Source: Bacteroidales bacterium (GTDB lineage: Bacteria; Bacteroidota; Bacteroidia; Bacteroidales; F082). From it: DNA of 64,000 nt. Location of the stretch: assembly GCA_013141455.1 (NCBI GenBank), contig JABFQW010000021.1, forward strand, positions 62,001 through 126,000. Direction: 5' to 3'. Position numbers and translations under genes: made by a program. The notes beneath the pieces are model-generated. The model did no database searches, was not told where the DNA came from, and worked only from the letters and a program-made list of their open reading frames with translations. Below are positions 15,863 to 57,535 of this stretch, in pieces; positions within the stretch are counted from its first letter, which is position 1, and each line of letters begins with the position of its first letter.

Positions 15863-15880
15863 ATGTGTTTTTTTGAGCAT

Positions 15881-17169: not shown

Positions 17170-17181
17170 ATTCTATAAATT

Positions 17182-18005: not shown

Positions 18006-18067
18006 GAAATATAGCATCGGTGTGTAAGCAAAATTGCAGCTCTTTTGTAAGCTTTGATTTTGAACGT

Positions 18068-38987: not shown

Positions 38988-41984
38988 ATGAAAAGTATCA
39001 GACAGAACATTCAGTCAAGTATTAAAGGTATTTTACTAATCCTGCTGGTAAATTTTGCCAGTCATTTTGCCAGCGCACAGGTTGTGATTAACGAATATTC
39101 CGTTTCTAACCTTTCGTCATTTCAGGATAACTATCAAAAATATGAAGATTGGTTCGAATTAAAAAATACGGGCAGCGAGGCAGTTTTGCTGGGCGGATAT
39201 TTTCTGAGTGACGATCCCGGCAATCCGATGAAATTTACCATTCCGGCAGGTATCACTATTCAAGCGGGGGGATTTTACCGGGTTTGGGCCTCGGGTCGCG
39301 ATGAGGTGATATTTAACCATCTGCATACAAATTTCAAACTCTCTCAAACAAAAGATAACCCTGAATATATCGTGTTATCGACTCCCGATGGAACCATTAC
39401 CGATCAGGTGCAGCTCAATAAAACCATGAAAGAACATTCGCGTGGCAGATCGCTGACCGATAGTGAACAATGGGTCGTGTTTACAAACCCGACACCTGGC
39501 AGTTCAAACGGTAGTCTTGCCTACACTGATTATGCGCCGAAACCGGTTATGAGTCAGCCGGCAGGTTTTTATACCGGTTCAATTACACTTGAATTAACCG
39601 CACCCGATCCTGATCTTGAAATTCGCTACACGACAAATGGTAGTGAACCTACGCCAGCATCCACACTGTATTCAGAACCCATCACTATCTCTCAGAATAC
39701 CATTGTTAACGCGCGTTGTTACAGCGACGATCCGGCCGTGTTACCGGGCTGGATCGAATTCGACAGCTATTTTATCGATACAGAACATACCCTGGCAGTC
39801 GTTTCAGTTTCAGCAGCAACACTCGACAACCTTCTCAATGGTGACCAGTATCTTGTTCCGTTTGGCACCTTTGAATATTTCAATAAAAACGGCATCCGGA
39901 CCACTTTTGGTTATGGTGAGTTCAACGAACATGGTCAGGACTCATGGGTACATCCCCAACGAAGCATCGATTACATCACCCGCGACGAATGTGGCTACAA
40001 CTACGCCATCCGCGACACACTCATCAGTATTACTGAACGTAATGAGTTTCAGCGTATCATCCTGCGCGCTGCCGGTGACGACAATTATCCGGGTATTGAT
40101 TCGAGCGCATTGCTCAGGGATATGTTTGTTCAGAACACAGCCCAGATCAACGGAATGCACCTCGATGTGCGGAAAGGTGAGAAATGCGTGATGTACGTCA
40201 ATGGCGTATTCTGGGGCGTTTATGGCATCCGTGAAAAAGTAAATGACCACGATTTCACCGATCTTTATTACGGACAGGATAAATACCACCTGTATTTCCT
40301 GATGCTTTGGGGAGGCAGTTGGGCCGAATATGGAGGACAGGAAGCCTGGGACGATTGGAACGATCTGCACGATTTTATCAAATTCAACGATATGGGCATC
40401 CAGGAGAACTTCGAATATGTTAAGACCCGTTTCGATTACAAAAGCCTGGCCGATTATATCATCATTAATTCCTTTGTCGTTTGTTCCGACTGGATCAACT
40501 GGAACGTAGGCTGGTGGCGTGGAACAAACACCGAAGGTGGACACCAGAAATGGGGATATATCCTTTGGGACGAAGATGCAACCTTCAATCATTATGTTAA
40601 TTACACAGGTATTCCAAGCACCCTGCCCACGGTTTCACCCTGCTTCCCGCACGATCTGATGAACGATCCTGAGGAACATATACTGTTACTCAACCAACTG
40701 AGGGAAAATCCAGAATTTAATCAATATTATATTTCACGATATATCGACCTGTATAACAGTACCTTCAAGCCCGAAAACATGATCGCCTACCTAAATGAGA
40801 TAGCTGCGAAAATGAGTCCCGAGATGCCACGCCACATCATGCGTTGGGGAGGCAGTATGCTTGAATGGGAACACAATGTACAGAAAATCAGAAACTTCAT
40901 TACTGACCGTTATGCTTATCTGCCCGATGGACTGGAATCCTGTTTCGATCTGAACGGGCAATATACCTTCTATGTTCAGGTTGAACCTCCAGGCACCGGT
41001 ACTATCGAACTGAACTCGTTGCTGTTAGAATCGTTCCCATGGCAGGGAACCTATTTTGGAGGGCTGAACGTTAACCTGAAGGCAATACCGGCTGATGCCA
41101 ACATCGAATTTGATTACTGGGAGTTATCGAACCACACGGTAACGCCCGATATTTATGCACAGGAGGTACAGTTTGTTCCTGAGACGAATGATAATATCAT
41201 CGCGCATTTCAAATATAAAACCTATGCCGACAGTCTGGTAATCAACGAAATAAATTATAATTCGGCCGATAATTTCAACCCTGGCGACTGGGTGGAAGTA
41301 TATAACCCGCATCCATACACGCTGGACATAAGCGGTTGGGTGTTTAAGGATGAAGATGATAGTCATAGCTACGCTTTCCCCGAAGGCACGGTTATCGAAG
41401 CAAACGGTTATCTGGTTATTTGTGCCGATGGTGTTGCTTTTTCGGAACTTTTTCCAGAAGTGGACAATTATATCGGCGATACCGGCTTTGGATTAAGCAG
41501 TGGTGGTGAGTTGATCAGGATATATAATGCATCCGCAACCTTGATTGATCAACTTACTTTTGATGACACGGCACCCTGGCCAACAGAACCCGATGGTAAC
41601 GGCCCTACCCTGGAGTTGATGAAACCATCGTTGGACAATGCACTCGCCGAAAGCTGGATGGCCCATCCGCTGCATGGCACACCCGGATCGGAAAACAGTC
41701 AGCTCGTCGATATTCACGAAAACGATGCCCGGGATAATGCTTTTCTGCTGCAAATTATCCCCAATCCTGTTAAGACTACCGCGGTTATTACTATTATTGG
41801 CGGTAAAACCACAAGCGCCGATCAGCTTTACCTGACAAATATGTTTGGTTATACGGTGTGCAGTTACCCCCTATCGGAAGGTAATAGTTTCCGGATCAGT
41901 CTCGAAGGATTATCATCGGGCGTGTATGTGCTTCATTACCGTAATGCCGATGGCCGAACGGCGCAACGAAAATTAGTGCATTAG
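38988..41984 (+). CDS. Secreted CotH-kinase-like protein with two lamin-tail domains and T9SS sorting domain
   Basis: 998 residues. Signal peptide to about residue 31 (ASHFASAQ). First lamin-tail domain about 32-150 (VVINEYSVSNL ... YEDWFELKNTG). A chitobiase-like beta module lies at about 190-255 (EIRYTTNGSEPTPAST). The CotH-like kinase domain is about 260-650: IILRAAGDDNYPG, LLRDMFVQN, VYGIREKVNDHDF, WGYILWDEDATFN (a D-x-D-like metal site). Second lamin-tail domain about 740-850 (LVINEINYNSADNFNPGDWVEVYNP). The C-terminal T9SS domain runs from IIPNPVKTTAVITI to the end. CotH enzymes phosphorylate proteins in spores; the target here is unknown. Confidence 0.88.
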   Translation: MKSIRQNIQSSIKGILLILLVNFASHFASAQVVINEYSVSNLSSFQDNYQKYEDWFELKNTGSEAVLLGGYFLSDDPGNPMKFTIPAGITIQAGGFYRVWASGRDEVIFNHLHTNFKLSQTKDNPEYIVLSTPDGTITDQVQLNKTMKEHSRGRSLTDSEQWVVFTNPTPGSSNGSLAYTDYAPKPVMSQPAGFYTGSITLELTAPDPDLEIRYTTNGSEPTPASTLYSEPITISQNTIVNARCYSDDPAVLPGWIEFDSYFIDTEHTLAVVSVSAATLDNLLNGDQYLVPFGTFEYFNKNGIRTTFGYGEFNEHGQDSWVHPQRSIDYITRDECGYNYAIRDTLISITERNEFQRIILRAAGDDNYPGIDSSALLRDMFVQNTAQINGMHLDVRKGEKCVMYVNGVFWGVYGIREKVNDHDFTDLYYGQDKYHLYFLMLWGGSWAEYGGQEAWDDWNDLHDFIKFNDMGIQENFEYVKTRFDYKSLADYIIINSFVVCSDWINWNVGWWRGTNTEGGHQKWGYILWDEDATFNHYVNYTGIPSTLPTVSPCFPHDLMNDPEEHILLLNQLRENPEFNQYYISRYIDLYNSTFKPENMIAYLNEIAAKMSPEMPRHIMRWGGSMLEWEHNVQKIRNFITDRYAYLPDGLESCFDLNGQYTFYVQVEPPGTGTIELNSLLLESFPWQGTYFGGLNVNLKAIPADANIEFDYWELSNHTVTPDIYAQEVQFVPETNDNIIAHFKYKTYADSLVINEINYNSADNFNPGDWVEVYNPHPYTLDISGWVFKDEDDSHSYAFPEGTVIEANGYLVICADGVAFSELFPEVDNYIGDTGFGLSSGGELIRIYNASATLIDQLTFDDTAPWPTEPDGNGPTLELMKPSLDNALAESWMAHPLHGTPGSENSQLVDIHENDARDNAFLLQIIPNPVKTTAVITIIGGKTTSADQLYLTNMFGYTVCSYPLSEGNSFRISLEGLSSGVYVLHYRNADGRTAQRKLVH

Positions 41985-42444
41985 ATTAATTACTTATGTT
42001 TCACACAAAGGGCTAACGATTTTAATGTAATGTATTAATATATAATATGTTACAATTTTTATATTTGAAATTCAAATCTCTTTATGATCCTTTGTGCCTT
42101 CTTTGTGACACTTTGTGTAACAGTTTTTAGCTATACCACAAAAGGCACTAAGAAGACACAAAGCGATGCAGTGAGCTTGCCAAACTGTACCGCAAAGGAC
42201 TAAATAGTATTTATACTTCGCTATGGATCAATTACATACCTACATCTACAATATATGCGCAACATAAGTAATTGGTGCTTGGAGATATTGGATTCGAAAT
42301 GTTGAATTCCGAAAGGAAGACCATGATTTTTTATCCATTGGAAATCAATTATTTGTACTGATTAACAAGTCATTACGACTTTAGTATCTGCTCCAATCGA
42401 AAAAATGCCGACCTTTGCCACGAATTTACCTGTACGACAATACC
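41985..42444. other. Intergenic region before rlmN with an inverted family B-like repeat
   Basis: 460 bases without a gene. At 42088-42165 'cctttgtgccttctttgtg' and 'cacaaaaggcactaagaag' plus 'acacaaag' form an imperfect inverted repeat, related in style to family B words. GACCTTTG at 42410-42417 is a weak -7 candidate for rlmN. Confidence 0.5.
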
Positions 42445-43485
42445 ATGGAGAAAGAAATATTATTCGGCAAAACACCTGACGAACTGAAAGAGGTAAGTCT
42501 GAAATTAGGTTTACCAAATTTTACCGCCAAACAAATCAGCGAATGGCTTTATAAAAACAATGCCCGTTCGTTCGAACAAATGACGAATTTATCGAAGAAG
42601 GCACGCCTACTTCTCGAAGAGCAATATGAAGTGGGTGTGACCGATTTCAGCAAGGTTCAGGCTTCGACCGATGGTACAAAAAAATACCTTTTTCCGACGC
42701 AGAATAATCGTTTTATTGAGTCAGCCTATATACCGGATGCACATAGGGCTACCTTGTGTGTTTCGTCGCAGGTGGGTTGTAAGATGGGTTGTTTGTTTTG
42801 CATGACCGGGAAACAAGGATTTCAGGCACAACTTTCGGCAGGTGAAATTATTAACCAGATCATGAGCTTGCCCGAAAGGGAGAGTTTGACCAATATCGTG
42901 TATATGGGCATGGGCGAGCCATTCGACAATCTTGAACATGTCATGCGAAGTCTTGAGATCATGACTTCGGAATGGGGATTGGGGATGAGTCCGCGACGCA
43001 TCACCGTTTCAACGATCGGTGTGATTCCGGCCATGAAACATTTCCTCGAAAATTCGGATTGCAATTTAGCCGTGAGCATGCACACGCCGTTTCATGAAGA
43101 ACGCCGTAAACTCATGCCGATTGAGAATGTTTATCCGATTGCTGAGGTAATTAAGACGTTGCGAAGTTTCGACTTTGGCAAACAGCGCCGTATTTCGTTC
43201 GAATACATCATGTTTGCCGGTATCAACGACACACCCGAACATGTAAAAGAGCTGGCGCGCCTGCTCAATGGTATGCGTTGCCGCATCAACCTGATTCGTT
43301 TTCATCCTATTCCATCCACACCACTGCGTAGCTCGAACGATGCCACCATCGAAGATTTCAGACTGGCCTTGCTCGACAAAGGCATACGCACCACCGTTCG
43401 TGCTTCGCGTGGCCTCGATATTTTTGCCGCCTGCGGACTGCTGTCAACCAAGGAATTGGTGAATATGCAATCACCTGATTTCTAA
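42445..43485 (+). CDS. rlmN: Dual-specificity rRNA/tRNA adenine C2 methyltransferase RlmN
   Basis: 346 residues from the ATG at 42445; a TTG ten codons earlier is less likely. Radical SAM enzyme methylating A2503 of 23S rRNA and A37 of some tRNAs. CKMGCLFCMTGKQG is the cluster motif (C-x3-C-x2-C), YMGMGEPFDNLE and RRITVSTIGVIP follow, SDCNLAVSMHTPFHEERRKLMPI is typical, and FAACGLLSTKE near the end holds the methyl-carrier Cys. The last codons read NMQSPDF, unlike the KQQALDF of the two displaced 3'-end copies downstream at 45631-45837 and 51170-51253. Confidence 0.97.
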   Translation: MEKEILFGKTPDELKEVSLKLGLPNFTAKQISEWLYKNNARSFEQMTNLSKKARLLLEEQYEVGVTDFSKVQASTDGTKKYLFPTQNNRFIESAYIPDAHRATLCVSSQVGCKMGCLFCMTGKQGFQAQLSAGEIINQIMSLPERESLTNIVYMGMGEPFDNLEHVMRSLEIMTSEWGLGMSPRRITVSTIGVIPAMKHFLENSDCNLAVSMHTPFHEERRKLMPIENVYPIAEVIKTLRSFDFGKQRRISFEYIMFAGINDTPEHVKELARLLNGMRCRINLIRFHPIPSTPLRSSNDATIEDFRLALLDKGIRTTVRASRGLDIFAACGLLSTKELVNMQSPDF

Positions 43486-43538
43486 TACTGTTTTAGATTA
43501 TCAGATACGGTTTATGAATTTGCACCAGCAGGTACTAT

Positions 43539-45335
43539 TTACAAATGGTATAATCTGGTAATATAGTTTCCTTTTGGATGTTTCAATTTCAGAATGTATG
43601 TTCCACTTTTTAAAGTGGAAACATCTATTTTTGAATTGTTCTTTATTTTTTCACTGAACAATAGTACACCCTGAATAGAATAAATTTCTATATAGATATT
43701 TTCATCAGATTCCAAGGAGCTACTAATGGACACCATTGAGCTGGCTGGATTTGGTGAAACACTAAATGAAAAAATGTCATTATTAAGTTCTGTTACATTT
43801 GTTGGCTCTAACCTGATGAGAATGGTATCGGTGTTTGAGCAACCATAATAATCCGTTACCAAAACAGATATTTGAATGGAATCAGCTGTAATGGAGCTGT
43901 CGTTTGTAAAAACTAAACTAGGATGAGTCCAAGCGTCTATATTCCACAAATATTGTGAGTAGCCATATCCTGGAGTAAGCAATATTGATTCACCCTTAGC
44001 CAAAATAGTATCGTTGCCCAGGTAAAAATGAGGCAACGGATTAATAGAAACGAATACCGTATCAATATATTGATTGCTATATCGATCGGTTACCTGTAAC
44101 ACATATTGTCCTGAGTCGGTTACAGTAATGGATGGTTCTACACTACCATTCGACCATAAATAGGTCTGGTAATCAGCAAATGGAAAGAGTTTAATAGAGT
44201 CTCCGGCACAAAATGATTGATGGTCACTGAAAAATACGTTTGATCTATAAATATATATAGAATCCTCAAATACAGGATTGGAATATAAATAATAATTCTC
44301 CTGATCGTAAATTTTTCTTCCACCCATATTATTGTCAAAATCAGATCGGCTGAAGAAGGTGTTAATCAATTTCATATGACCTGAAATGGTATCAATTTCA
44401 AAAAATGCAATCTCTCCTTCTGAGCTGACTAAAAAAGCCTTGTGATTAGGCGATAGAGTCATTGAATTTGGATTTCTTAAGTTTGGATAACCAAATTCAT
44501 GTGTTTGGATGATTGAAAGAGAATCGGTCAAAGGATCAACAACCAACACTACTGCCGCTCCCGATCCCATCGAATTGGTAATTGTGTATAGGAATCGGTT
44601 ATCGAAACTTACCATGGATTCCTGGGCAAAGGTTAAAGACTGATTTTGGTAGTTTGAACCCCGGATTTCCTGCATAAATGTTAAAAGTCCGGTAACAGGA
44701 TCTCTATAAAAAGAGGAAATGCCATGCCCTCCTGTGGCATAAATGAAATGATTATCAGGACTTAAAGCACAAGAAACCTCATTAGAAAACCCTTCAACAT
44801 GATTCAAATCGGAATACTCTTCAATCAATTCGAGCTGTCCTGTGATGGTATCACGGCTATATAAAAAAATATCATCCCTGACCGAATTATACATAAACTG
44901 GCCATCCCGGCTTAAAACCAAACAATTATTAGTGTTATTGATGTTTGAGGGACTTTCCCATTTTTGATAGGTCAGGGTAGGAGTTAACAATCCCGTAGCT
45001 ACATTCACCTCAAAAACACCAATATATTCTCTAAACCCAAGATATAAGAAACCGGAATCGGCACTGATTGCCATGGAATAAGCCCAATAAATATCTGTCC
45101 CGTCATTTGTTTGTTCAATGGTCGAAATAAGCGTTAGATCACCAGTTGATACATTTCTTTCATATACTTGAAAATGATTATCGGTTGCCTCATAACAAAA
45201 TCTGTTATCAGGACTGATGATCATGTTATAAGGATATTTCAAATCTGAGTTAATGCTTTTGTAATAACTCATCTGAGCAAATCCTAACTGAAATATTCCA
45301 ATAAAGATTATGAGGATTATGTTGTTTTTTTTCAT
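43539..45335 (-). CDS. Secreted lactonase-like beta-propeller protein with T9SS sorting domain
   Basis: 598 residues. Signal peptide to about residue 20 (IIFIGIFQLGFAQ). Residues 30-375 form a seven-blade-type propeller with blades like M-I-S-P-D-N-R-F-C-Y, A-L-S-P-D-N-H-F-I-Y-A-T-G and M-T-L-S-P-N-H-K-A-F, resembling 6-phosphogluconolactonase-like (YVTN/lactonase) repeats. Residues 380-500 look like PKD/SprB-type modules (D-S-I-K-L-F-P-F, Y-L-W-S-N-G-S). The C-terminal sorting domain is FSVSPNPASSMVSISS to the end. It is inverted relative to rlmN, 53 bases after it, and lies between two copies of the rlmN 3' end. Composition is A+T-richer than rlmN. Confidence 0.85.
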   Translation of the reverse strand: MKKNNIILIIFIGIFQLGFAQMSYYKSINSDLKYPYNMIISPDNRFCYEATDNHFQVYERNVSTGDLTLISTIEQTNDGTDIYWAYSMAISADSGFLYLGFREYIGVFEVNVATGLLTPTLTYQKWESPSNINNTNNCLVLSRDGQFMYNSVRDDIFLYSRDTITGQLELIEEYSDLNHVEGFSNEVSCALSPDNHFIYATGGHGISSFYRDPVTGLLTFMQEIRGSNYQNQSLTFAQESMVSFDNRFLYTITNSMGSGAAVVLVVDPLTDSLSIIQTHEFGYPNLRNPNSMTLSPNHKAFLVSSEGEIAFFEIDTISGHMKLINTFFSRSDFDNNMGGRKIYDQENYYLYSNPVFEDSIYIYRSNVFFSDHQSFCAGDSIKLFPFADYQTYLWSNGSVEPSITVTDSGQYVLQVTDRYSNQYIDTVFVSINPLPHFYLGNDTILAKGESILLTPGYGYSQYLWNIDAWTHPSLVFTNDSSITADSIQISVLVTDYYGCSNTDTILIRLEPTNVTELNNDIFSFSVSPNPASSMVSISSSLESDENIYIEIYSIQGVLLFSEKIKNNSKIDVSTLKSGTYILKLKHPKGNYITRLYHL

Positions 45336-45600
45336 TTTGAATGAATTTTTGTGGTTTCGATTTATTATTGTACTAAATTATAAAAAAACTAATCCCCTGA
45401 GTTCGATATAGGAAATTTTATAAAAATGTAAAACATAAAGGATCGATTTAGCAACTTTGAGTAAAATCCTGAGCAATTAACAGATAGTAGTATTAAGCGT
45501 ATTGAGATTTTGTTCCTTTTTCGAATGAGTTCTCTAAAAATAATTTTAATGCTTTAGTAGAAGAGAATAAACGGGTAAGGAAAATAATAATTCACAATCC
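45336..45600. other. Spacer between the propeller gene and rlmN tail copy 2
   Basis: 265 A+T-rich bases with no supported gene. It contains the presumed promoter of the minus-strand propeller gene, but no clear consensus is seen. Confidence 0.4.
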
Positions 45601-45630
45601 ATGAGGCGTTTCGTTGCTTGGCATCAGCGC

Positions 45631-45837
45631 TCCCGTATCAACCTGATTCGTTTTCATCCAATTCCATCCACACCACTGCGTAGCTCGAACGATGCCACCA
45701 TCGAAGATTTCAGACTGGCTTTGCTCGACAAAGGCATACGCACCACCGTTCGTGCTTCGCGCGGTCTCGATATTTTTGCCGCCTGTGGACTCCTATCAAC
45801 CAAAGAATTAGTGAAACAACAGGCATTGGATTTTTGA
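45631..45837 (+). pseudogene. rlmN: Displaced rlmN 3' end, copy 2
   Basis: 68 codons aligned with rlmN from RINLIRFHPIPSTPLRSS to the stop, including the FAACGLLSTKE methyl-carrier segment. Relative to intact rlmN I count ten nucleotide differences before the last six codons, all synonymous (for example cct/cca, ggc/ggt, tgc/tgt, ctg/cta). The tail reads KQQALDF instead of NMQSPDF. An ATG at 45601 opens the frame ten codons earlier, but that part is unrelated to rlmN. Homology starts abruptly at the CGT/CGC Arg codon. Confidence 0.9.
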
Positions 45838-46204
45838 GCGGAGGATTTGTCGGGGACAGGATTTTTAATTCCCCTTTTGGTGTATTTTGGAGTCGCCCAA
45901 AAATAACGGGATCTGAATTATGAACGATGAAGTTGCAAACACCGAACGGAGCGCTTCTCCCGAATGCTATCAGGAGGGTTGCCGATACTCGGGACAAGCT
46001 GGGCCGACCACATAACTAAATCCAAAGCCAGCATGCCCATGCTTTGCCCGGGAACTGATACATTTTTATGAAGCCAAAACCATTCCCAATAAATCGCTGA
46101 TTAAGAAGATACTATTTGAATTCTGATGTAAAGTTGATGGTGTTGCCATCAATAACAATGATTTTTAAAGTACCTTTAGTGCCTGTTCTAAATTAGCAGA
46201 AGAG
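45838..46204. other. Spacer after rlmN tail copy 2
   Basis: 367 bases without a supportable gene. TACCTTTA near 46170 may be the -7 element of the TPR-HTH gene. Confidence 0.45.
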
Positions 46205-47584
46205 GTGTATATAAGGATATTATTAATTTACTTTTTTAGTTTTCTGGTTATTACGGGAAGTTATGCAAATGAAGAGCCTGAATCCCTCAAGATTAGGGTT
46301 ACGAAAAACGGTGTGCTTTTTCGTGAAAACCTTGATCTGGCTTATCTTGATATACAACCACTCCTTTTGGAGGCTCTGCAGGCAAAGGATAGTCTATCAG
46401 AACTCATACTTTTTGAAAGGAAGTGCAGGTATTTTTATACAAAAAGCCAATATGACAGCTTGAATGAAACCTCCGTTTTCCTTTTGGAACAGGCAACCCG
46501 CTACAAGAACAATTATTTTCAAGCGATGGGCCATATGTTTCAGGCGGAGGGATTTTCTGTGAATAGTTTGTATGACCGTGCCATAGGAAGTCTGACACAA
46601 GCTTATAATATTCTGAGTAAGGACAAGAGCGGAGATGCGATTATTTTTTTCGCGAAAGCTAATGTGTTGAACAGTTTTGCAAATGTTTATAATGATAATG
46701 GTGAACCGGAAAAGGCAGTTGAAAAGATTAAAGAAGTGATTGGGAGCTATAATTCTTTAAAAAACAAAGAGGATATCAATCGTTTCCAATACTTGAATTA
46801 CAGTAATCTCTCAGGTGTATATACGATGTTTGATATGGATTCGGCAGAGTATTATGCCAAAAAGTCAATAGAAATTAAACCTTCAGATGTGGTAGAAGAC
46901 AAGGCGATGATGATGAATTATTATGCGTTGGGCAAAGCGTTTAAATCGAGAAATGATTATTCCAGCGCAGCAAGTTACTATCACAAAGCAATAGCGGCAG
47001 GTGTTAAAAGTGGTACTTCGCTAAATCTGACTGAAATTTACAACAGTCTCATAGATATTTACGAGAAAGAAGGGAATAAAGACAGTGTGTTGTTGTATGT
47101 GAATAAACTCAAAGAAATGGAGTTGAACATCCTTCAGAGTAAATACAATTCACTCCAAAAGACTGTCATCAGTGGGGAGAAAAAAACATCACCTGTGTGG
47201 ATTATCTTTCTGGTAGCAATGATGAGTTTAATCATCTTTTATCTTTGGAGAAAACTCGCACGGAAAAAGCTTGTTGCTGAGTCTGTTTCAAATGAAGCAT
47301 ACAATTCTTTGATCCAATTATTAAAAGACAACGATACTGGCTTTTACTTTGCTTTTGAGCAGGTTTTCCCTGACTTTTCAGAAAAACTGCTTGTAATAAA
47401 CCCGGTTTTAGCAAAAACTGAAATTGAGTTTTGTTTCCTGCTAAAGCTTAAACTTACAACAAAAGAAATAGCTCAACTTACGTTTCTTGAGCCACGGACG
47501 GTCCAAAACAAGAAACATAGGATAAGAAAACGTTTAGATATTCCTTCCTCAGCCGATATTTATGTCTGGCTGGATTCCATATAG
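46205..47584 (+). CDS. TPR-containing membrane regulator with LuxR-like C-terminal HTH
   Basis: 459 residues from a GTG start; no ATG fits. An N-terminal signal (IRILLIYFFSFLVITGSYA) is followed by a TPR-like helical domain in the periplasm (about residues 40-310; A-S-Y-Y-H-K-A-I-A-A-G and Y-N-S-L-I-D-I-Y-E-K-E-G repeats), one transmembrane helix (about 325-345, PVWIIFLVAMMSLIIFYLW), and a C-terminal DNA-binding segment (TTKEIAQLTFLEPRTVQNKK, HRIRKRL). The layout is a one-component sensor common in Bacteroidetes. It precedes the Big2 secreted protein by 161 bases on the same strand and may control it. Confidence 0.8.
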   Translation: MYIRILLIYFFSFLVITGSYANEEPESLKIRVTKNGVLFRENLDLAYLDIQPLLLEALQAKDSLSELILFERKCRYFYTKSQYDSLNETSVFLLEQATRYKNNYFQAMGHMFQAEGFSVNSLYDRAIGSLTQAYNILSKDKSGDAIIFFAKANVLNSFANVYNDNGEPEKAVEKIKEVIGSYNSLKNKEDINRFQYLNYSNLSGVYTMFDMDSAEYYAKKSIEIKPSDVVEDKAMMMNYYALGKAFKSRNDYSSAASYYHKAIAAGVKSGTSLNLTEIYNSLIDIYEKEGNKDSVLLYVNKLKEMELNILQSKYNSLQKTVISGEKKTSPVWIIFLVAMMSLIIFYLWRKLARKKLVAESVSNEAYNSLIQLLKDNDTGFYFAFEQVFPDFSEKLLVINPVLAKTEIEFCFLLKLKLTTKEIAQLTFLEPRTVQNKKHRIRKRLDIPSSADIYVWLDSI

Positions 47585-47745
47585 TTCTTCGTAAGTTTCA
47601 GAAAATCAGTATTGAGTATCTGTTGTGTAGCCTTTTTATTTAAGACGGTAACTCATGATGTAGGGATTAATCGATTGCTGAAAGAATTGTCAATTACATT
47701 TGGCAAGCTTTTTTCGGCCAATGTTAAATCTCTAACTAAAACTAA

Positions 47746-50700
47746 ATGAAAAGAAGAATTACAATCGTATTTTTGGCATGTTTGCTTGCATTTCTGAACA
47801 TAAATCTGCATGCACAAGTGTGGGAACCTGTTGGAAATCCCGATGGAATTTCATTGGGGGGTGTCGGCCGCTTAACACTTGTAAACGATTTTGAGGATAA
47901 TTTAGTAGTTGGGTATTATGATGCAAGTGTGGAAAAAGCCTCCGTACAGAAATATGATGGAACGAACTGGTCATATCTTGGTCAAGCCGGAATGACGCCC
48001 AGTTATGCGACTTATAATTCATTGGCCGTAGATAATGTGGGAATCCCTTACTTCACAAATCAGGCAGCTTATCCGGAAGCTGGCTTAGAAGTTAGAAAAT
48101 TTGAAAATGGTGTCTGGGTGGACTTGCCTAATGCGGCTGATCAGATTATTAATTTTCAATCTTCTGCATTTTCTGCAGATAACACTCTCTTTGTAGTAAC
48201 AGGGGAGAACTCAGGCACTGTTAAAAAGTTTGTAAATGGGACCTGGGAACAAGTAGGCACTTCCAACTTTTTGAATGATACTCCATTCTATTTGGATATG
48301 GCAATTGCAAATAATGGCAAAATATACATTAGCTTCAATAACAATGGATTTGTTCATGTTTTTGAAAACAATGTAAACGCATCTATAACTGATGAATGGC
48401 TCCCTGTTGGCGGCATCACTGATATTGCTCCGGCCCCCGCTACTGAGAATTATAACTCTTCTCTGGCTGTAGATGGCAATAGCAATCTTTTTCTTGCTTA
48501 TGCCTCCTCTTATAACCAAGGTCAAAAATTAAATGTTAAAAAATTCGACGGTACTGAATGGAGTCAGTTAGGCAATGCACAATTTTCGCCAAACGCTGTT
48601 CAGTATGTTAGTATCGCAATTGGGGCAAATAACATTGTTTATGTTGTGGCCAGTAACTGGGCAGAAGAGGATTTTGGCAGAAACTATGTCATGTTTTATA
48701 ATGATGCCACCGATTTGTGGGAGCAGGCAGGTACAGGTTGGGCTTCAATGGGAGAGGCTAGTTTTAATTCTTTGGAGGTTAATAGTAATGGCAATCTTTT
48801 CCTGGCATTTTCGGATTCTTATATAGATAAATTGTCTGTGAAAATGTTAAATCTGGATATAGTTGCTGCCGAAAGTGTTGAAATAAGCACCGAAGGAGGA
48901 GTGCCGGCTGAAATTACAGAGGATAATGGAACACTACAGTTAATAGCTACCGTATTACCCGAAAATGCAAGCCAAAGTGTAGTTTGGAATATTGAGTCAG
49001 GAGAAACTTTTGCTACTGTTGATGAAAATGGCCTAGTAACAGCTACTACATCAAATGCTGTTGTTACTATAAGAGCTTTTTCTACGCAAAACGAATCGAT
49101 ATTCGACACTTTTGATGTTACTATTACCAATCAAAACAGTGATATTGAAGCGCAAGAAATTGTATTAACGACTGAAAACAATGTGTTTTCTGATATTTTA
49201 TCGATAGGAGGTACTTTACAATTGATCTCAACTATTACTCCGGCTGAAGCCGACCAATATGTAATATGGACAGTTGAAGAAGGGTCTGACATCGTTAGCG
49301 TAAACTCCGAAGGATTAGTTACCTCTCTTTCTGAAGGATATGCCATCATTAGGGCTACATGCACAGAAAATGCAACCCTATATGATGAAATGAGAATTAA
49401 TGTTTGGGAAAGCGGTTGTTCTCAGGGCAATGAATCCATGGTTTTTGGAGACGGTTATACAATTAGTAATGGTTTTAAGGTAGCTGATGACTTCATTGTT
49501 GAAGAGGGGATGAGATTCTCTGTAGGGACCATTAGAATGAATATTCTGATTGATCCAGATGTTGATATTACCTCTGTTGACCTTCATTTTTTGAAGAATG
49601 ATGTGGATCGTCCGGGTGAGGAAATAACGGTCATCTATAACATTACACCAACTTATCAGAGATTTATAGCAGACTTCGATTTTGTACAACAGTATGAAAT
49701 AGAGCTGGATTTAGATGAGACGATCATGTTTGAACAGGGAACTTATTGGTTATCGCCTGTTGCGACATCATCAAATGGAAGTGATGTGTATTGGGACGCG
49801 ACTGTTTATGGAAATATTGGCTATGGCTTTTATTCTGATAGTGACGACGGTCATGGATGGAGAGGTAATGGTGGAATGGATGCTGTATTTGAAATTACCG
49901 GAAACTGCACTCAGATGCCGGTGGTTGTTAATACTGCCAACGGAGAGGATACCGAAATCTATGTTGAAGAGGAATTACAGCTTGAAGCGCAGGTAAATGA
50001 ACCAGATGTTTCTCAAGATGTAATCTGGTCAGTAGAATCCGGATCTCAATTTGCTACGGTTGATGAAAACGGATTGGTTATTGGAATAGCTGTGGGTGTT
50101 GTTGTGGTGAGGGCTACCTCTGTTGATGACAATTCACTTTTTGGTGAAATAGAAATAAGTGTAATTGATCCCAATACTTGTGGAGTCTCAGTTCCGTCGA
50201 ATAATTTGGAAAATGGGTATCTGTTTGGTAGCATTCGTTTGGCGGTGGATATTATTGTTGAAGAAGGTTATACTTTTACTATTACCTCAGTTGAACCTAC
50301 GGTTATAGACTTGGCAACGGAGTTTACATTTTTGTTTTACAAGGATGAAGACGGGTTTCCGGGAGATACTGTGACAGCAACAACAACAGGTACCATAACA
50401 CATAACACAACAACAGGCATGAATTTTCTTTATTATTTCCATCGCTATCATATTGAACTGGATACACCTGTTATTCTGGAGGAAGGAATTTATTGGATGG
50501 AGATAGTAACAAATGCTATTGGATGGGAATCAACATCTGTAAGTGTTATTGGCCATCCGGGAGTATTTAACAATCCTGATACCGGAGGAGAATGGCAATA
50601 TTCTTCAAATGGATCGGAATATGTTTATAATGTAAATGGACTCTGTGAATTAGTGACTTCTATTCCGAACAACAGCCTTTCTGAAGATAATGATATCATG

Positions 50701-50922
50701 GTTTTTCCAAACCCTTCTGATGATCATATTACCCTTAAAATCAATAATATCCACGAAAGATCAATAGAAGTTAATATTTTCGATTCCTTAGGTCGAATAG
50801 TAATGAACAGCAACTTTAATCAGGAAACAGATCTCGATATCAGTAGCTTACCTAGTGGTATTTATTATATTAAAATCTTTAGTGAAGAGATAAATGAAAT
50901 ACGAAAAATAATAGTGAATTAA
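47746..50922 (+). CDS. Secreted propeller/Big2 protein with T9SS sorting domain
   Basis: 1058 residues. Signal peptide to about residue 23 (ACLLAFLNINLHAQ). Residues 25-370 have blade-like repeats of the form K-Y-D-G-T-N-W-S-Y-L-G and K-F-D-G-T-E-W-S-Q-L-G. Three bacterial Ig-like group 2 domains follow (about 375-455, 465-550 and 722-800), each with 'GTLQLIATV.PE', 'VVWNIESG..FATVDENGLV' and 'V.IRA.S' strands. Between and after them are two jelly-roll-like modules (D-V-D-R-P-G-E-E; D-G-F-P-G-D-T-V). The C-terminal domain, IMVFPNPSDDHITLKI to the end, is T9SS type A. It lies between two displaced rlmN 3' ends. Confidence 0.87.
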   Translation: MKRRITIVFLACLLAFLNINLHAQVWEPVGNPDGISLGGVGRLTLVNDFEDNLVVGYYDASVEKASVQKYDGTNWSYLGQAGMTPSYATYNSLAVDNVGIPYFTNQAAYPEAGLEVRKFENGVWVDLPNAADQIINFQSSAFSADNTLFVVTGENSGTVKKFVNGTWEQVGTSNFLNDTPFYLDMAIANNGKIYISFNNNGFVHVFENNVNASITDEWLPVGGITDIAPAPATENYNSSLAVDGNSNLFLAYASSYNQGQKLNVKKFDGTEWSQLGNAQFSPNAVQYVSIAIGANNIVYVVASNWAEEDFGRNYVMFYNDATDLWEQAGTGWASMGEASFNSLEVNSNGNLFLAFSDSYIDKLSVKMLNLDIVAAESVEISTEGGVPAEITEDNGTLQLIATVLPENASQSVVWNIESGETFATVDENGLVTATTSNAVVTIRAFSTQNESIFDTFDVTITNQNSDIEAQEIVLTTENNVFSDILSIGGTLQLISTITPAEADQYVIWTVEEGSDIVSVNSEGLVTSLSEGYAIIRATCTENATLYDEMRINVWESGCSQGNESMVFGDGYTISNGFKVADDFIVEEGMRFSVGTIRMNILIDPDVDITSVDLHFLKNDVDRPGEEITVIYNITPTYQRFIADFDFVQQYEIELDLDETIMFEQGTYWLSPVATSSNGSDVYWDATVYGNIGYGFYSDSDDGHGWRGNGGMDAVFEITGNCTQMPVVVNTANGEDTEIYVEEELQLEAQVNEPDVSQDVIWSVESGSQFATVDENGLVIGIAVGVVVVRATSVDDNSLFGEIEISVIDPNTCGVSVPSNNLENGYLFGSIRLAVDIIVEEGYTFTITSVEPTVIDLATEFTFLFYKDEDGFPGDTVTATTTGTITHNTTTGMNFLYYFHRYHIELDTPVILEEGIYWMEIVTNAIGWESTSVSVIGHPGVFNNPDTGGEWQYSSNGSEYVYNVNGLCELVTSIPNNSLSEDNDIMVFPNPSDDHITLKINNIHERSIEVNIFDSLGRIVMNSNFNQETDLDISSLPSGIYYIKIFSEEINEIRKIIVN

Positions 50923-51071
50923 ACCCAAATTAATCAGTAGGAGGCTAATAAAAGCCGAACTATCTGATTTAGTTGGGATAACCCCGACATAGAGTTTGTT
51001 TGAAGCATGATAAATCATGCTGAATTACAAACTCTTAGTCGATTACGCATTTTCAATGCGTAATTTGGGTT
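50922..51071 (+). ncRNA. Cloverleaf-like structured element after the Big2 gene (candidate RNA or DNA structure)
   Basis: The outer arms AACCCAAATTA (50922-50932) and TAATTTGGGTT (51061-51071) are complementary. Inside are ATCAGTAG/CTATCTGAT (50933-50940/50960-50968) capped by GGCT/AGCC, GTTGGG/CCCGAC (50972-50977/50983-50988), AGAGTTTGT/ACAAACTCT (50991-50999/51027-51035) with an inner GCATGA/TCATGC, and ATTACGCATT/AATGCGTAAT (51042-51051/51055-51064), which shares four bases with the outer arm. Not a tRNA. Function unknown. Confidence 0.5.
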
Positions 51072-51100
51072 AAATTAATCATGACAAAGAACATTGATTT

Positions 51101-51130
51101 AGCCGGCATTTAAGTATGCCGGCTTTTTTT
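51101..51130 (+). terminator. Intrinsic terminator
   Basis: AGCCGGCAT pairs perfectly with ATGCCGGCT around a 6-base loop, directly followed by seven T. It ends the Big2 transcription unit, or the structured RNA upstream of it. Confidence 0.85.
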
Positions 51131-51169
51131 ATGTAAACAATTTCTGAGATTTCATTCTTGTGCATGGGT

Positions 51170-51253
51170 ACTTCGCGCGATGTCGATATTTTTACCGCTT
51201 GCGGATTGCTTTCAACCAAAGAATTGGTGAAACAACAGGCATTGGATTTTTAG
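51170..51253 (+). pseudogene. rlmN: Displaced rlmN 3' end, copy 3 (28 codons)
   Basis: In frame it reads TSRDVDIFTACGLLSTKELV and then KQQALDF, stop, against RlmN A-S-R-G-L-D-I-F-A-A-C-G. It has four amino acid changes in the first nine codons, so it has drifted more than copy 2. It shares the KQQALDF ending with copy 2, including the same bases 'gtgaaacaacaggcattgg'. It begins 40 bases after the terminator at 51101-51130. Confidence 0.88.
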
Positions 51254-51363
51254 GTTAAGATCTGATTTAGCCCCTTGCATCCGTGTCATGATTAACAAAA
51301 ATTAAACTTTGATTATCAGCCTTTTCAAATCTTCGACTTACCTTCGCATCACATTCTGAAGCA

Positions 51364-51999
51364 TTGCGTTACATAATTGTTTTATACATTCTTTTTGGCA
51401 GTATCACTTTTGTTTCGGCCCAGGAAACGAAGTATATGCAGGGTCGTGTGTTCTCTGCCGACAGCCTGAAAGAATTAGCCGATGTTCACATTATCAGTAA
51501 ATTAGCCCTGCGTGGCACCATCAGCCTACCCGATGGTACCTTTTATATTAACTCGGCACCCAATGATTCATTGCTGTTCAGCATGCTTGGTTTTGAACGC
51601 AAAATCGTGCTCATCACCGAACAAATGTTGTTGAATGGCGAACGTATTTCGGTCTCGCTCGAAAGAGATACCATTTTGATGCAGGAAGTGGTGATCCGTT
51701 CCTTTTACGATTACCAGACATTTAAATATATGGTCGTTAACATGAAGCCACTGAAGCCTGTCAATCTGGAAACGATGGACAGCGAACTCAGGACAAGTCT
51801 TGAAGAGGTGCGTTCCTATCCGGCCTCGGCGGGTGGTCCCATTCAGGCTGCCTACGACTATTTCAACGATATGGCACGCCTGCAGCGGCGCATGGAGCAT
51901 AACCGCAGATTGTATAATGAACAATTGATTCTCGAGGGGAAAATAACCGACACCATCCCTGCCTTGCCGCAGCATCTGATCGAAAAATACAGGAAATAA
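51364..51999 (+). CDS. Secreted protein with carboxypeptidase-regulatory-like domain
   Basis: 211 residues from a TTG start, the only start that leaves a full signal peptide (IIVLYILFGSITFVSAQ). Residues 24-100 are a CarboxypepD_reg-like beta sandwich: M-Q-G-R-V-F-S-A-D-S-L, V-H-I-I-S-K, G-T-I-S-L-P-D-G-T-F-Y-I, S-L-L-F-S-M-L-G-F-E. The C-terminal half is helical and charged. Such proteins are common in Bacteroidetes envelopes; function unknown. It is probably the original neighbour of rlmN before the cassettes arrived. It is convergent with purL (8-base gap). Confidence 0.8.
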   Translation: MRYIIVLYILFGSITFVSAQETKYMQGRVFSADSLKELADVHIISKLALRGTISLPDGTFYINSAPNDSLLFSMLGFERKIVLITEQMLLNGERISVSLERDTILMQEVVIRSFYDYQTFKYMVVNMKPLKPVNLETMDSELRTSLEEVRSYPASAGGPIQAAYDYFNDMARLQRRMEHNRRLYNEQLILEGKITDTIPALPQHLIEKYRK

Positions 52000-52007
52000 G
52001 TTTCTGT

Positions 52008-55000
52008 TTACTTATGTGCGATCCAGTTACGGGCATTCACAAAAGCTTCAATCCACGGCGATACCTCATCATTTTTTCGGTCACCAGGGTAATGTGCCCA
52101 TTGCCAGGGTAAAATTGATCTTTCGGGATGTGGCATCATGGCCAGATGACGTCCGTCGTTTGAGCAGATTCCCGCAGTAGCCCAGTCGCTTCCGTTTGGA
52201 TTGGCCGGATATTGCTCATGAGCGAAAGTCATCACGATATTGTATTTGTCGCGATACATCGGGAAACTGAATTTTCCTTCACCATGCGCCACCCAAACGC
52301 CTAAGTGTTTACCGACCAGACTGCCAAGCATGATGCTTTTGTTATCTTCGATTTCAACACTCAGGAAAGCCGATTCAAACTTACCCGATTCGTTATGGTG
52401 CATCACCGGTTTCTCAGGATGATCGGGATAAATGAGACCAAGCTCCATCATCAACTGGCAACCGTTGCAAACACCCAGACTGAGCGTATCATGACGGGCA
52501 TAAAATGTATCAAGCGCTGACTTGGCTTTTTCATTATAAAGGAATGCACCGGCCCAGCCTTTGGCCGAACCCAATACGTCTGAATTCGAAAAACCACCAA
52601 CAAACACGATCATCTTCACATCCGAAAGGTCCTCACGGCCGCTGATCAAATCGGTCATATGAATGTCTTTCACATCAAAACCGGCCAGATAAAGGGCATA
52701 CGCCATCTCACGGTCGCCGTTTACACCTTTTTCGCGGATGATAGCCGCATTGATGCCGGTTCGTTCGCGTCGTTTGAAATCGATCCCATATTGCGATGCC
52801 TTTCCGGTGAAACTTTTACTGAAACTGAAACTCAGATCCTGATGTTTATAATTTTTATACCGTTCAAGTGCTTTCTTCTCACCACATTGTTTCTTGTCGA
52901 GCAGATACGACGATTTGAACCAGGTATCGCGCATGGTATCAATATCGATGCTGTATTTTTCGTTTTCGTGCAGTATAGTCAGGGTACGCGATTCGGCAGG
53001 TTTCGCGATTGATACGAAACTCACACCGGCATCAGAAAGTATTTTCCGGGCTTTTCCGTCAGTTTTTACCTGTATAATTACGGATGGTTTTTCGCTGAAA
53101 AGGATACTGAAGATGTCGTAGCGTTTGCACGAGGTGAGATCAACGATTAGGCCATGATCACAATTCGCGAATGTCATTTCGAGCAGACAGGTTATCATGC
53201 CACCGGCTGAAATATCATGTCCGGCCAACACCAATTCTTCCTGAATAAGGGTTTGTAAGGTGTTGAATGTGAGCGCGAAATAATCGGTGTCTTTCACATC
53301 AGGCGCTGTTTTTCCGATCTTATTCAATACCTGGGCAAAGCTGCTGCCACCCAACAGAAAATCGTCGCACGAGAAATCGAGATATAACAATTCGGTCTCC
53401 ATATCGGGTTTAAGAACCGGTGTAACTGCTTTCCGCAGATCGGTTGTTTCGCCGACAGCAGTAACGATAACGGTTCCGGGCGAAAGTACTTTTTTACCGT
53501 CCGGATATTTCTGGGTCATCGAGAGTGAATCTTTTCCGGTGGGAACGTTGATGCCGAGTTCGATACAGAAATCGCTTAATGCCCTGACGGCCTTGTATAA
53601 ACGGTTATTTTCGCCTTCGTTACGTGCAGGCCACATCCAGTTGGCACTCAGCGAGATACCTTTTATTCCATCATCAATAGGTGTCCAGACAATATTGGTG
53701 AGCGCCTCGGCAACCGACAACCTGGAGGCAATCCGTGAGTCGATCAATCCTGCTACCGGTGCATGACCAATGGCTGTTGCAATACCGTGCACACCCTGAT
53801 AGTCGATAGCGGTGATTCCGAGATTGTTTAACGGAAGCTGTATGGGCCCGGCACATTGCTGCATGGCAACACGGCCGGTAACTGAACGGTCAACCTTGTT
53901 GGTAAGCCAGTCTTTGCATGCCACCGATTCGAGTTGTAACACCTGACCGATGTAGTAAATGAGGTTATCCTTATCGTAACTCAGTTCCTCGAATTTATAT
54001 TTTTTATGCTCGTCTTCCAGTATGGTTTTGGGCGCTTTACCAAAGAAATGTTCTAATTTCAGATCGATTGGGTTGGTACCGCTGCTACGCACAAACCGTA
54101 ACTTCATTTCATCGGTCACTTTACCGACTTCATATATCGGGGCACGCTCACGTTCTGCTGTTCTGCGTAATAAGGCAAGATGGTCAGGGTGAATTACCAG
54201 GCCCATTCTTTCCTGTGATTCGTTGCCGATGATTTCCTTGTCGGATAGCGTTTGATCGCCGACAGGCAGTTTTGAAATATCGATTGTTCCGCCTGTTTTT
54301 TCAACTAATTCCGACAAACAGTTGAGATGTCCGCCTGCGCCGTGGTCATGAATAGAAACAATTGGGTTTGTTTGTGCTTCCGACATGGCTCTGATCACAT
54401 TGGCGACACGTTTTTGCATTTCGGGATTGGCACGTTGCACGGCGTTCAATTCAATGGCGTTGCTAAACTGACCGGTATCAACACTCGAAACAGCTCCCCC
54501 ACCCATCCCGATCCGGTAATTGTCGCCGCCAAGCAACACGATCAAATCATCTTTATGAGGGACTTCCTTATGGCTGTCTTCACGCCGGGCATAGCCAACA
54601 CCGCCCGCAAGCATGATCACCTTATCGAATCCAAAAGCAGGACCTTCGTCATGTTCAAAAGTAAGCAGACTGCCATTGATTAGAGGCTGACCAAATTTGT
54701 TTCCAAAATCGGAAGCTCCGTTCGATGCTTTGATAAGTATTTCGGCGGGCGAATGATAGAGCCAATCGCGCTCCGGATTATTTTGTTCCCAGCTCCGGTT
54801 ATTTTCGGTTCTCGGGTAGGAAGTCATATAAACTGCCGTTCCTGTGAGGGGGACGCTCCCTTTACCACCAGCCAGACGGTCACGTATCTCACCGCCGCTA
54901 CCTGTTGAAGCGCCATTGAAAGGTTCAACCGTGGTTGGGAAATTGTGTGTTTCAGCTTTTATCGAGATGATTGTATCAATATCGGTTACTGTAAAAAAAT

Positions 55001-55691
55001 CAGCTTTATCCTGATGAAGTGGTGCAAACTGTTCAGCCTGCGGTCCCGAAATGAAGGCAACATTGTCTTTGTATGCCGAAACGAGTTTGTTAGGATTTAA
55101 TTCAGATGTTTTTCGGATAAGTTGGAACAACGTTTCGGGCATGGGTTTGCCATCGATGATAAATGTACCGTTAAATATTTTATGGCGACAATGTTCCGAA
55201 TTAACCTGTGCGAATCCATACACCTCGCTATCAGTAAGTTTACGACCTATTTTCTGGCTGATATCTTCGAGGTAATCAATTTCGTCGGGGCTGAGCGCCA
55301 GACCTTCCTGTTTGTCGTATTGTTTGAGATCATCAATAAATCGAATCGCTTCAGGTTTGTGATCAATATCGAATAATTTTTGATCGAGATTGATATACAG
55401 GGATTTCAGCATTGGGTCGAAAATCTTGTCGTCGCTTGTTACTTTGCTGAATTCTTCCATACGGACGATGCCCGTTATGCCCATGTTTTGTGTTATTTCA
55501 ACGGCATTTGTGCTCCAGGGTGTGACCATCTCTTTGCGTGGCCCGATATAGTTTCCGGTTACAAGCGGTTCAGAAATCACATGAGCGTCTCCCAATAGCC
55601 AGTTAAGTTTTTGAAAAACTACAGGAGATTGTTGGATTTGTGATTGAACGGCTATAATTCGATTTTTGGAGGCTTGTATGAAGTATATCAT
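52008..55691 (-). CDS. purL: Phosphoribosylformylglycinamidine synthase, single-chain
   Basis: 1227 residues, the long form with fused PurS-like, PurL and glutaminase parts. Converts FGAR, glutamine and ATP to FGAM in purine synthesis. [14 protein letters not shown] and [27 protein letters not shown] are the N-terminal ATP and substrate motifs; [17 protein letters not shown] comes from the second half. The class I glutamine amidotransferase has [14 protein letters not shown] with the nucleophile Cys and [12 protein letters not shown] with His and Glu. Full length and intact. Confidence 0.97.
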
Positions 55692-55871
55692 TTGGTTTGC
55701 TTTTTGCTCGTTGACTTCAAAAAATGCGACGCGGCAAAGGTAACAATTGTATGAAATTACACAGTGGTATTTCCGATTTTCGTTGAACAGAATTTTTGGT
55801 TAGGTTTTGAGAGCTGAATGTTGTGACCCGAAAATTAATGAATTGAAAAATAAGTCATTAAGCGGATATGA

Positions 55872-56801
55872 TCAAAGATCTTTTACCGAAACACCATATA
55901 CTTCATTTGAACTGTCATCGCCAAGTGGCTCAACATGCACCAAAACATCGTAAATATTTGGAATCTGTGCCTTGATTTTATCTTCAACTTCGTGGGTGAT
56001 GGCATGTGCCTTATCGAGTGAAAGTGAACCATCAACCTCAATATCGAGATCAATGACAAAAAAGTGAGCGATTTTACGGGCCCTGATACGGTGCGGGTTA
56101 TGGGCGCCGGCAATTTGCGCAACAGCCTCAGTAATTGATTTATAAATGGCCGGATCGTCGATACGATCCATCAGGTTCTGACTCGATTGAATGATAATCC
56201 GGACAGCTACGAACATAATCCATCCGCTCACAGCAAGGGCGGTGATAGAATCGAGTACAGGCAACTGAAATATATGGGTAAAAACTAAGCCAAGCAACAC
56301 CGAACTTGAAATGACCACGTCACTTTGCATATTACGCGCATTGGCTTTAAGCATTTCACTGTCGGCTTTCTTACCAACCTTATTGAGGTAATAAGCCAAT
56401 AGTTGTTTTCCGGCAATGGATATAATAACAACGATTACTGCCAACAAAGAAGGAACTTCTGATCTGTCGCCTTGTATGAGACCATGAACAGTTGATATAG
56501 CCAATTGTGCACCGGCAAAGAAAATGATAAAGGCGAGTAGTTTTGAAGCAACGGTATCGGCTTTTTCATACCCGTATGGATATTTCATATCGGGTGGTTT
56601 TGATATGAAACGTGCGGTAATCAGGGTAATAAGTGAGGTAATAATATCGCTTGCCGAATCCACTCCATCGGCCACAAGGGCCATGCTGCCCGAAATGAAA
56701 CCAGCTACGATTTTGGTGACTGATAACAGGGCATTTCCAAAAATACTGTTCCATGAAGCCCGTATTATACGCTGCTCCCGCGATTTGGTTTGTACCGTCA
56801 T
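55872..56801 (-). CDS. Cation diffusion facilitator (CDF) metal transporter
   Basis: 309 residues with six transmembrane helices. LVADGVDSASDIITSLITL carries the TM2 metal-site Asp pair (D-x3-D), and the TM5 site lies in LDSITALAVSGWIMFVAVRI. The cytoplasmic domain has A-R-K-I-A-H-F-F-V-I-D-L-D-I-E-V-D-G-S-L-S and VHVEPLGDD, like FieF/ZitB. It exports divalent cations (Zn, Fe, Co or Mn; specificity unknown). It lies between purL and the phosphate pair on the same strand, with no shared operon evidence. Confidence 0.9.
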   Translation of the reverse strand: MTVQTKSREQRIIRASWNSIFGNALLSVTKIVAGFISGSMALVADGVDSASDIITSLITLITARFISKPPDMKYPYGYEKADTVASKLLAFIIFFAGAQLAISTVHGLIQGDRSEVPSLLAVIVVIISIAGKQLLAYYLNKVGKKADSEMLKANARNMQSDVVISSSVLLGLVFTHIFQLPVLDSITALAVSGWIMFVAVRIIIQSSQNLMDRIDDPAIYKSITEAVAQIAGAHNPHRIRARKIAHFFVIDLDIEVDGSLSLDKAHAITHEVEDKIKAQIPNIYDVLVHVEPLGDDSSNEVYGVSVKDL

Positions 56802-56884
56802 GTATTTTCAGATTTACAACAAAGATAGAAATGAAATCGGGTCAAAGTACAAAATTCGGGATAAAACAACTCCCAAAGATTCGA

Positions 56885-57535
56885 TCAGGCAAGTTTCACC
56901 ATGATGGTCCGGATGACGTCAGAAACATCCTCGGCCTTGTCAACTGATTTCTCGAGTGACATATGAATCTCCTTGATCTTGATTAATTCGACAGTATCTT
57001 TTTCCTCTTCAAAAAGTACCGAGATGGCCAGATTATATACATGATCGGCCTTGTTTTCCAGCAAATTGATTTCGTCACAGGCATTCATGATCCGATCTCT
57101 GTTTTTGCCTGGATTACTCAAACCATTCACGGCGATTTCTATTTGTAAGGCGACCAGACCAATGATTTCGGCAACCTGATACATTTCAGGTGTGAGCGCT
57201 TTAGGTTTATAAAGCCGTATGCGCTGACTTGCGGCATTAATATTATCCAGCACATCATCAACGGAAGAAGCCAAAGCATGAATGTCTTCACGGTCGAAAG
57301 GTGTGATGAACGATTTATTGAGTTGTGTAAATATTTTATCTGTTACCCTGTCGCCTTCTTTTTCGGTGGCTTTTATCCTGGCAATAAACGCATCCCGGTC
57401 GTCGATATCTGTTGTCGAAATAAGGTCTTTCAACAGCTCCGATCCTTTGATCAGGATATCGGCATCTTCTTTAAAAAGTGGAAAAAAAGCTGTTTCTTTT
57501 GGCACAAAGTACTTTAATAAATCGTCGAGTTTCAT
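56885..57535 (-). CDS. DUF47/PhoU-like protein, partner of the phosphate transporter
   Basis: 216 residues, helical. F-V-P-K-E-T-A-F-F-P-L-F at the start and E-K-E-G-D-R-V-T-D-K-I, P-F-D-R-E-D-I-H-A-L-A-S-S-V-D-D-V-L-D are hallmark segments of DUF47/PhoU-like (Pit accessory) proteins, including the metal-binding E-x3-D and D-x3-D pairs. These proteins are coded next to PiT transporters, as here (58 bases upstream), and are thought to regulate them. Confidence 0.93.
   Translation of the reverse strand: MKLDDLLKYFVPKETAFFPLFKEDADILIKGSELLKDLISTTDIDDRDAFIARIKATEKEGDRVTDKIFTQLNKSFITPFDREDIHALASSVDDVLDNINAASQRIRLYKPKALTPEMYQVAEIIGLVALQIEIAVNGLSNPGKNRDRIMNACDEINLLENKADHVYNLAISVLFEEEKDTVELIKIKEIHMSLEKSVDKAEDVSDVIRTIMVKLA

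Follow-up and report, generated by a model that had tools for sequence, protein, structure and literature searches.

rlmN is followed by two displaced copies of its own 3′ end

We examined a 64,000-nucleotide stretch of DNA (hereafter the window; positions 62,001 to 126,000 of contig JABFQW010000021.1, assembly GCA_013141455.1) in which rlmN, a gene for an RNA-modifying enzyme, is followed by two partial copies of its own 3′ end, each separated from the preceding one by other genes. The window lies in a contig of 136 kb from a Bacteroidales draft genome (G000) that comprises 154 contigs. A first-pass annotation had described an intact rlmN with two plus-strand copies of its 3′ end and had proposed that DNA entered the end of the gene repeatedly, each time pushing the old tail downstream. 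Comparison of the window with itself bore out this arrangement: positions 43275–43463 align with 45627–45815 (94% identity over 189 nt, E 8e-78) and positions 45752–45835 align with 51168–51251 (88% over 84 nt, E 2e-23). The ends of the copies stood as annotated, whereas their starts shifted to 45627 and 51168, making the copies 2–4 nt longer. Beyond these two displaced copies no other part of rlmN is duplicated within the window, contrary to a tandem duplication of the whole region, which the annotation had named as a case that would overturn its proposal. The copies are as follows (spans of the displaced copies are counted through their stop codons).

42415–43485, plus strand: intact rlmN (TIGR00048 equivalog, 357 bits), ending in NMQSPDF
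43275–43485, plus strand: current rlmN tail (copy 1), holding the AACGLLS motif
45627–45837, plus strand: displaced tail (copy 2), 211 nt, about 69 codons, ending in KQQALDF
51168–51253, plus strand: displaced tail (copy 3), 86 nt, 28 codons, ending in KQQALDF

rlmN more probably starts at the ATG at 42445, where the alignment with the congener G003 also begins. We take the Cys of AACGLLS to be the methyl carrier, as in RlmN of Escherichia coli. The contrast in endings between the current and the displaced tails had been read correctly; specifically, the last seven codons of copy 1 are unlike those of copy 2, though the tails are otherwise homologous. These seven codons also differ from those of congeners, and have ATGCAATCACC in common with the locus of another relative (L052), whose rlmN ends in KMQSPDF and so resembles the current end in the window. 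Copy 3 differs from copy 2 at 12 positions, 4 of them amino-acid changes, which is consistent with a greater age, and copy 3 is presumably the oldest displaced tail.

The DNA between the copies is foreign in composition, with a GC content of 34–38% against about 46% in rlmN, in the gene at 51364 and in purL further downstream. It comprises two inserts carrying three genes, two of them for proteins with a sorting domain of the type IX secretion system (T9SS).

43486–45626: insert 1, GC 34%, absent from G001, G002 and G003
43539–45335, minus strand: propeller (Lactonase) protein of 598 aa with a C-terminal T9SS sorting domain (PF10282, PF18962, TIGR04183)
45838–51167: insert 2, GC 38%, absent from G002 and G003 except for its first 17 nt
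45838–45854, plus strand: the 17 nt directly 3′ of the copy 2 stop, matching the sequence after G003 rlmN (GCGGAGGATTTGTCGGG)
46205–47584, plus strand: TPR protein of 459 aa with a putative C-terminal HTH
47746–50922, plus strand: Big_2 protein of 1058 aa with a T9SS sorting domain (PF02368, PF18962, TIGR04183)

The propeller gene in inverse orientation between copies 1 and 2 was confirmed by its domains. For the pair described as a TPR-HTH regulator and a T9SS-secreted Big2 protein the domains were recovered as well, the TPR through weak Pfam matches below the cut-off; the HTH assignment comes from sequence only. The propeller gene is not in congeners, has no close homologue among 119 relatives and was not found on viral contigs or plasmids. 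In a Pfam/TIGR domain search none of the three cargo genes showed a transposase domain.

The site is empty in one congener and differently occupied in another

To the right of copy 3 lies the native flank of the gene.

51364–51999, plus strand: native right-hand neighbour, a secreted CarbopepD_reg_2 protein, directly after rlmN in G002 and after a displaced tail in G003
52008–55691, minus strand: purL (phosphoribosylformylglycinamidine synthase; NF003672, 1429 bits), syntenic in G002 and G003

The first-pass annotation predicted a relative in which rlmN ends in KQQALDF and directly precedes the 51364 gene, and the congener G002 is such a relative: its rlmN, ending in KQQALDF, is followed by the 51364 orthologue and then purL, and its alignment with the window is unbroken from position 51185 to 57000. 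In the congener G003, rlmN also ends in KQQALDF, and the 17 nt past its stop are shared with copy 2 of the window; other cargo, a gene for a 547-aa secreted protein, follows and runs to the contig end. On a second contig of G003 the 51364 orthologue stands behind a 14-codon displaced tail (STKELVQQQVLNF), which is preceded by genes for secreted proteins, at least two of them with T9SS sorting domains. The genus of the window thus includes one species with an empty site and two with different inserts. The inserts sit between the gene body and the old gene end.

We note that a 998-aa secreted-type gene (38988–41984) adjoins rlmN on its upstream side and is absent from both G002 and G003. DNA has been gained to the left of rlmN too, and no gene-end copy is visible there.

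Displaced rlmN tails recur in other Bacteroidales lineages

The annotation also predicted rlmN loci that carry tail fragments with different cargo between them, and such loci were found in addition to that of G003. In a profile scan of 90 rlmN loci, further displaced tails were found only in loci L108 and L109 (genomes G942 and G943); the same profile gave no match in 741 kb of reverse-strand and 655 kb of upstream sequence, which excludes chance. In both loci rlmN is separated from a displaced tail of 36 codons by one inverted gene for a 394-aa secreted protein. The cassette is 96–100% identical between G942 and G943 from just past the rlmN stop, whereas rlmN itself is 82–98% identical. Within the genus of G943, G963 has the same junction, G949 has a separate displaced tail (15 matching codons) at a distance of 4.3 kb downstream, with a caspase-domain gene among the genes that precede it, and G944 has a decayed displaced tail. 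Sixteen different genes occupy the first place after rlmN among 21 genomes of this genus.

Two further cases come from other branches. In G269, of another family, a single lipoprotein-like gene (274 aa) separates rlmN from a displaced tail of about 26 codons, and a gene read as rnhB comes next. In G083, of the window's family and another genus, a 47-codon displaced tail (L171, contig C50) lies on a contig other than that of rlmN, adjoining a nucleotidyltransferase/HEPN-like gene pair that is possibly the cargo of an insert. The same anatomy with other cargo is therefore present in at least three more lineages: G942, G943 and G963 together with G949; G269; and G083.

Surveys at the level of the order (393 genomes) and of the class (396 genomes) indicate that displaced rlmN tails are uncommon yet independent. 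Few genomes in the class survey had two tail matches, and the three that were followed up (G859, G632 and G750) have no displaced tail: the second matches in G632 and G750 lie inside RlmN-size open reading frames on other contigs, and the contig-end match in G859 is a plain contig overlap, as is that in G221. A candidate in G031 proved to be a contig break.

That T9SS cargo accretes behind rlmN, as had been proposed, holds for the window's genus (the window and G003), where such cargo dominates; elsewhere the place is taken by other secreted proteins or caspase-type genes. Since the cargo differs in other lineages, the hotspot is a property of the rlmN end and not of T9SS.

As a separate observation, loci L179–L198 of the G943 genus carry a changing gene set between rlmN and a conserved block, with nearly all genes directed towards rlmN. 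The set includes HsdS/HsdM, RhuM-like, caspase, GMC-oxidoreductase-like and DUF2235-like genes, several of these names having been given by eye.

Current and displaced tails differ mostly at synonymous sites

Random substitution would be expected to yield about a quarter synonymous changes. Between the current and the displaced tail of the window, all 10 differences in the 180-nt core are synonymous (P 5e-6 against random substitution). The corresponding comparisons gave 7/7 in G942, 8/8 in G949 and 14 of 17 in G963, and lower proportions in G943 (6 of 9) and G269 (3 of 6). With G003 as the reference, 8 of 12 differences in the window arose on the copy 2 side, and 7 of these 8 are synonymous. 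A comparison of copy 1 with copy 3 that had been read out of frame was left out of these counts. Because the differences are mostly synonymous, we conclude that the tails diverged as working alleles and were then united by recombination, and that they did not arise by duplication in place.

A homology-driven join is the favoured route of insertion

Our results suggest that the rlmN 3′ end is a recurrent insertion point, and we favour, with moderate confidence, the reading that the join is homology-driven. The incoming DNA would consist of a 3′ segment from a working rlmN allele of another lineage, followed by cargo. Such a donor would recombine with the resident gene inside the shared rlmN 3′ sequence, leaving, in order, a complete rlmN with a new end, the cargo, and the old 3′ end of the resident as a fragment. 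At least two events would account for the window: the TPR and Big_2 insert would have entered first, with copy 3 as the old end, and the propeller insert later, with copy 2 as the old end. The product might arise by a single crossover with a circle bearing about 80–210 nt of rlmN, or by homology on the rlmN side combined with an illegitimate join on the other. Here we infer, rather than read from the DNA, any dependence on RecA, the circular or linear form of the donor, its route of uptake and the order of the two insertions in the window.

Two observations lead us to prefer a homology-driven join. First, the starts of the displaced tails vary (about −210, −84, −42, −105, −53 and −81 nt). Second, in agreement with the annotation, which saw no integrase or transposase gene, a motif scan and phmmer (XerC query, with a control run) over 1.9 Mb around 120 rlmN loci detected no tyrosine or serine recombinase. 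The homologous side within rlmN and the variable right-hand boundaries are directly observed. It had been proposed that each insert supplied a C-terminus with the Cys codon; since any point of the 189-nt homology could be the crossover site and just the final seven codons are clearly foreign, the incoming DNA may or may not have brought that codon.

Several findings weigh against a homology-driven join. Every boundary falls within the last ~210 nt of a gene of ~1070 nt, and three well-preserved independent boundaries (−81, −84 and −105) lie within 25 nt of one another, as an integrase would likewise give. In the G943 genus the rlmN tail is no more phylogenetically incongruent than other 90-nt segments of the gene, and this comparison gave no support to tail swapping from distant donors in that genus. 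Searches of phages, plasmids and viral contigs yielded no donor molecule: the rlmN-tail matches there were all below 60% identity, most of the annotated ones were rlmN genes, and none of the contigs was confirmed as viral.

More tentatively, it is conceivable, if doubtful, that enzyme-free Bacteroidales cassettes move between species with a functional rlmN 3′ segment as a portable homology arm. If so, the segment would let the rlmN of any relative accept the cassette without loss of function, and the displaced tail would permit exit by the same route.

Resemblance to gene-end displacement at toxin loci

The arrangement is reminiscent of C-terminal displacement in rhs genes, for which a single crossover with a circle has been proposed (Jackson et al. 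2009, PMC2935791). At both kinds of locus new DNA enters between the gene body and the old end, and the former 3′ ends persist downstream in their order, each after a homologous piece of the gene, as seen here in copies 2 and 3 and in G003, L108/L109, G949 and G269. In contrast to rhs, the new end at rlmN is homologous to the old one, only the last seven codons of copy 1 being unlike copy 2, and the repeats are 84–94% identical rather than identical. Moreover, the housekeeping enzyme encoded by rlmN requires a functional end, so that a tail is swapped for an equivalent tail, and the variable part consists of separate cargo genes, not of a toxin tip.

Sequential displacement is also known from the type VI secretion system effector genes of Vibrio cholerae, where homology-facilitated illegitimate recombination has been proposed (PMC5361080). 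There, as at rlmN, insertions are repeated beside a homology anchor, and older 3′ ends and genes are shifted downstream. In V. cholerae, however, the effector module itself provides the anchor through its upstream part and immunity genes are retained, whereas the rlmN anchor is unrelated to the function of the cargo.

Gene-end displacement, so far proposed for polymorphic toxin loci, thus also builds hotspots beside an RNA-modifying enzyme that is kept intact. Displaced tails form an ordered record of insertion from which the direction and order of gene gain become readable, and the rlmN repeats permit a test of whether integrase-less Bacteroidales islands move by homologous recombination. Integrase-free hotspots could be sought in this way, by testing for displaced tails, at any conserved gene.

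Alternative explanations

One alternative is that the cassettes are islands of the integrative mobilizable or cis-mobilizable element type, with the rlmN 3′ end as attB, the displaced tails as attR and an integrase that was lost or acts in trans. Sites of the attB type classically lie at the 3′ ends of conserved genes, cis-mobilizable elements accrete without an integrase of their own, and the displaced tails are concentrated within the final 210 nt of rlmN. In addition, the actinomycete integrative and conjugative element AICE03 of Streptomyces RLB3-6 is inserted in rlmN, with its own integrase and excisionase and an 11-nt direct repeat (PMC9513070). AICE03 thus shares the target gene family of the loci described here, yet differs as an integrase-encoding element. 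As with an island, the target gene is restored to an intact frame at the window locus and a relative, G002, has the empty site. Against islands of this type, we found no recombinase in or at the element or near any of the 120 rlmN loci, and the tyrosine recombinases of G000 all lie on contigs other than that of the window. The boundaries differ between events, and the repeats, which are 84–94% identical and differ mostly synonymously over as much as 189 nt, show no short exact core at a fixed position. SCCmec in rlmH (orfX) and e14 and phage 21 in icd likewise insert into a conserved gene at its 3′ end and provide it with a working replacement end, the icd elements carrying a long copy of the gene end with mostly synonymous differences; these elements, however, have their own recombinase and a fixed core, whereas at the rlmN loci no recombinase was found and boundaries vary. 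On balance we regard integrase-dependent islands as rather unlikely.

Duplication in place, whether as a long target-site duplication or as a tandem duplication later split by cargo, would have produced identical copies that then decayed. The inserts are indeed flanked by direct repeats, and decay is seen in copy 3 and in the G944 tail. A decaying copy should nevertheless gather mostly amino-acid changes, and the differences were synonymous in 10/10, 7/7, 8/8 and 14/17 cases, with 7/8 among the changes derived in copy 2; copies 1 and 2, moreover, end in different sequences over their last seven codons. We therefore consider duplication in place very improbable. A composite transposon with target-site duplication was rejected: the cargo has no transposase domain, and instead of a short identical duplication there are repeats that diverged synonymously.

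Near the right end of insert 2 lies a further repeat.

50917–51077, plus strand: structured, MITE-like (miniature inverted-repeat transposable element) dispersed repeat of 161 nt, fold z-score −10

This repeat may have contributed to the join at the right-hand side of insert 2. It has more than 20 other copies in G000, 71–96% identical and beside unrelated genes, and one copy in G001; a comparison with Rfam gave no match above threshold. Its strong fold and complementary ends led us to consider integron-type cassettes, in which the repeat would be an attC site and the cassettes would be inserted by IntI. We rejected this possibility, which seems scarcely plausible, since the copies are scattered beside unrelated housekeeping genes and form no arrays, the recombinase gene nearest to any copy is XerC-like with EF-Tu close by (L150), only one copy lies within the two inserts, and the rlmN tails are not accounted for.

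An artefact of assembly or binning, the other case named by the annotation as one that would overturn its proposal, is extremely improbable. The window genome and most of those compared with it are, it is true, metagenome assemblies or many-contig drafts, and in G003 the site is divided between two contigs. Independent assemblies (L108, L109, L180 and L170) nevertheless show this anatomy with sequence that is related but not the same, the copies differ by 6–16% and are hence not collapsed or duplicated reads, and the cargo differs in composition from its flanks.

Direct-repeat pairs elsewhere in the window

Two pairs of direct repeats of about 150 nt between 13812 and 18214 were rejected as further cases of the rlmN type, their repeats being dispersed elements in congeners. 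The first pair (13812–13953 and 15664–15806; 92% identical), which carries a palindrome resembling repetitive extragenic palindromic elements, brackets an unknown gene pair at 14012–15611. The second (15871–16025 and 18058–18214; 88% identical) brackets an AbiEii toxin gene and a DUF6577 gene at 16102–17793.

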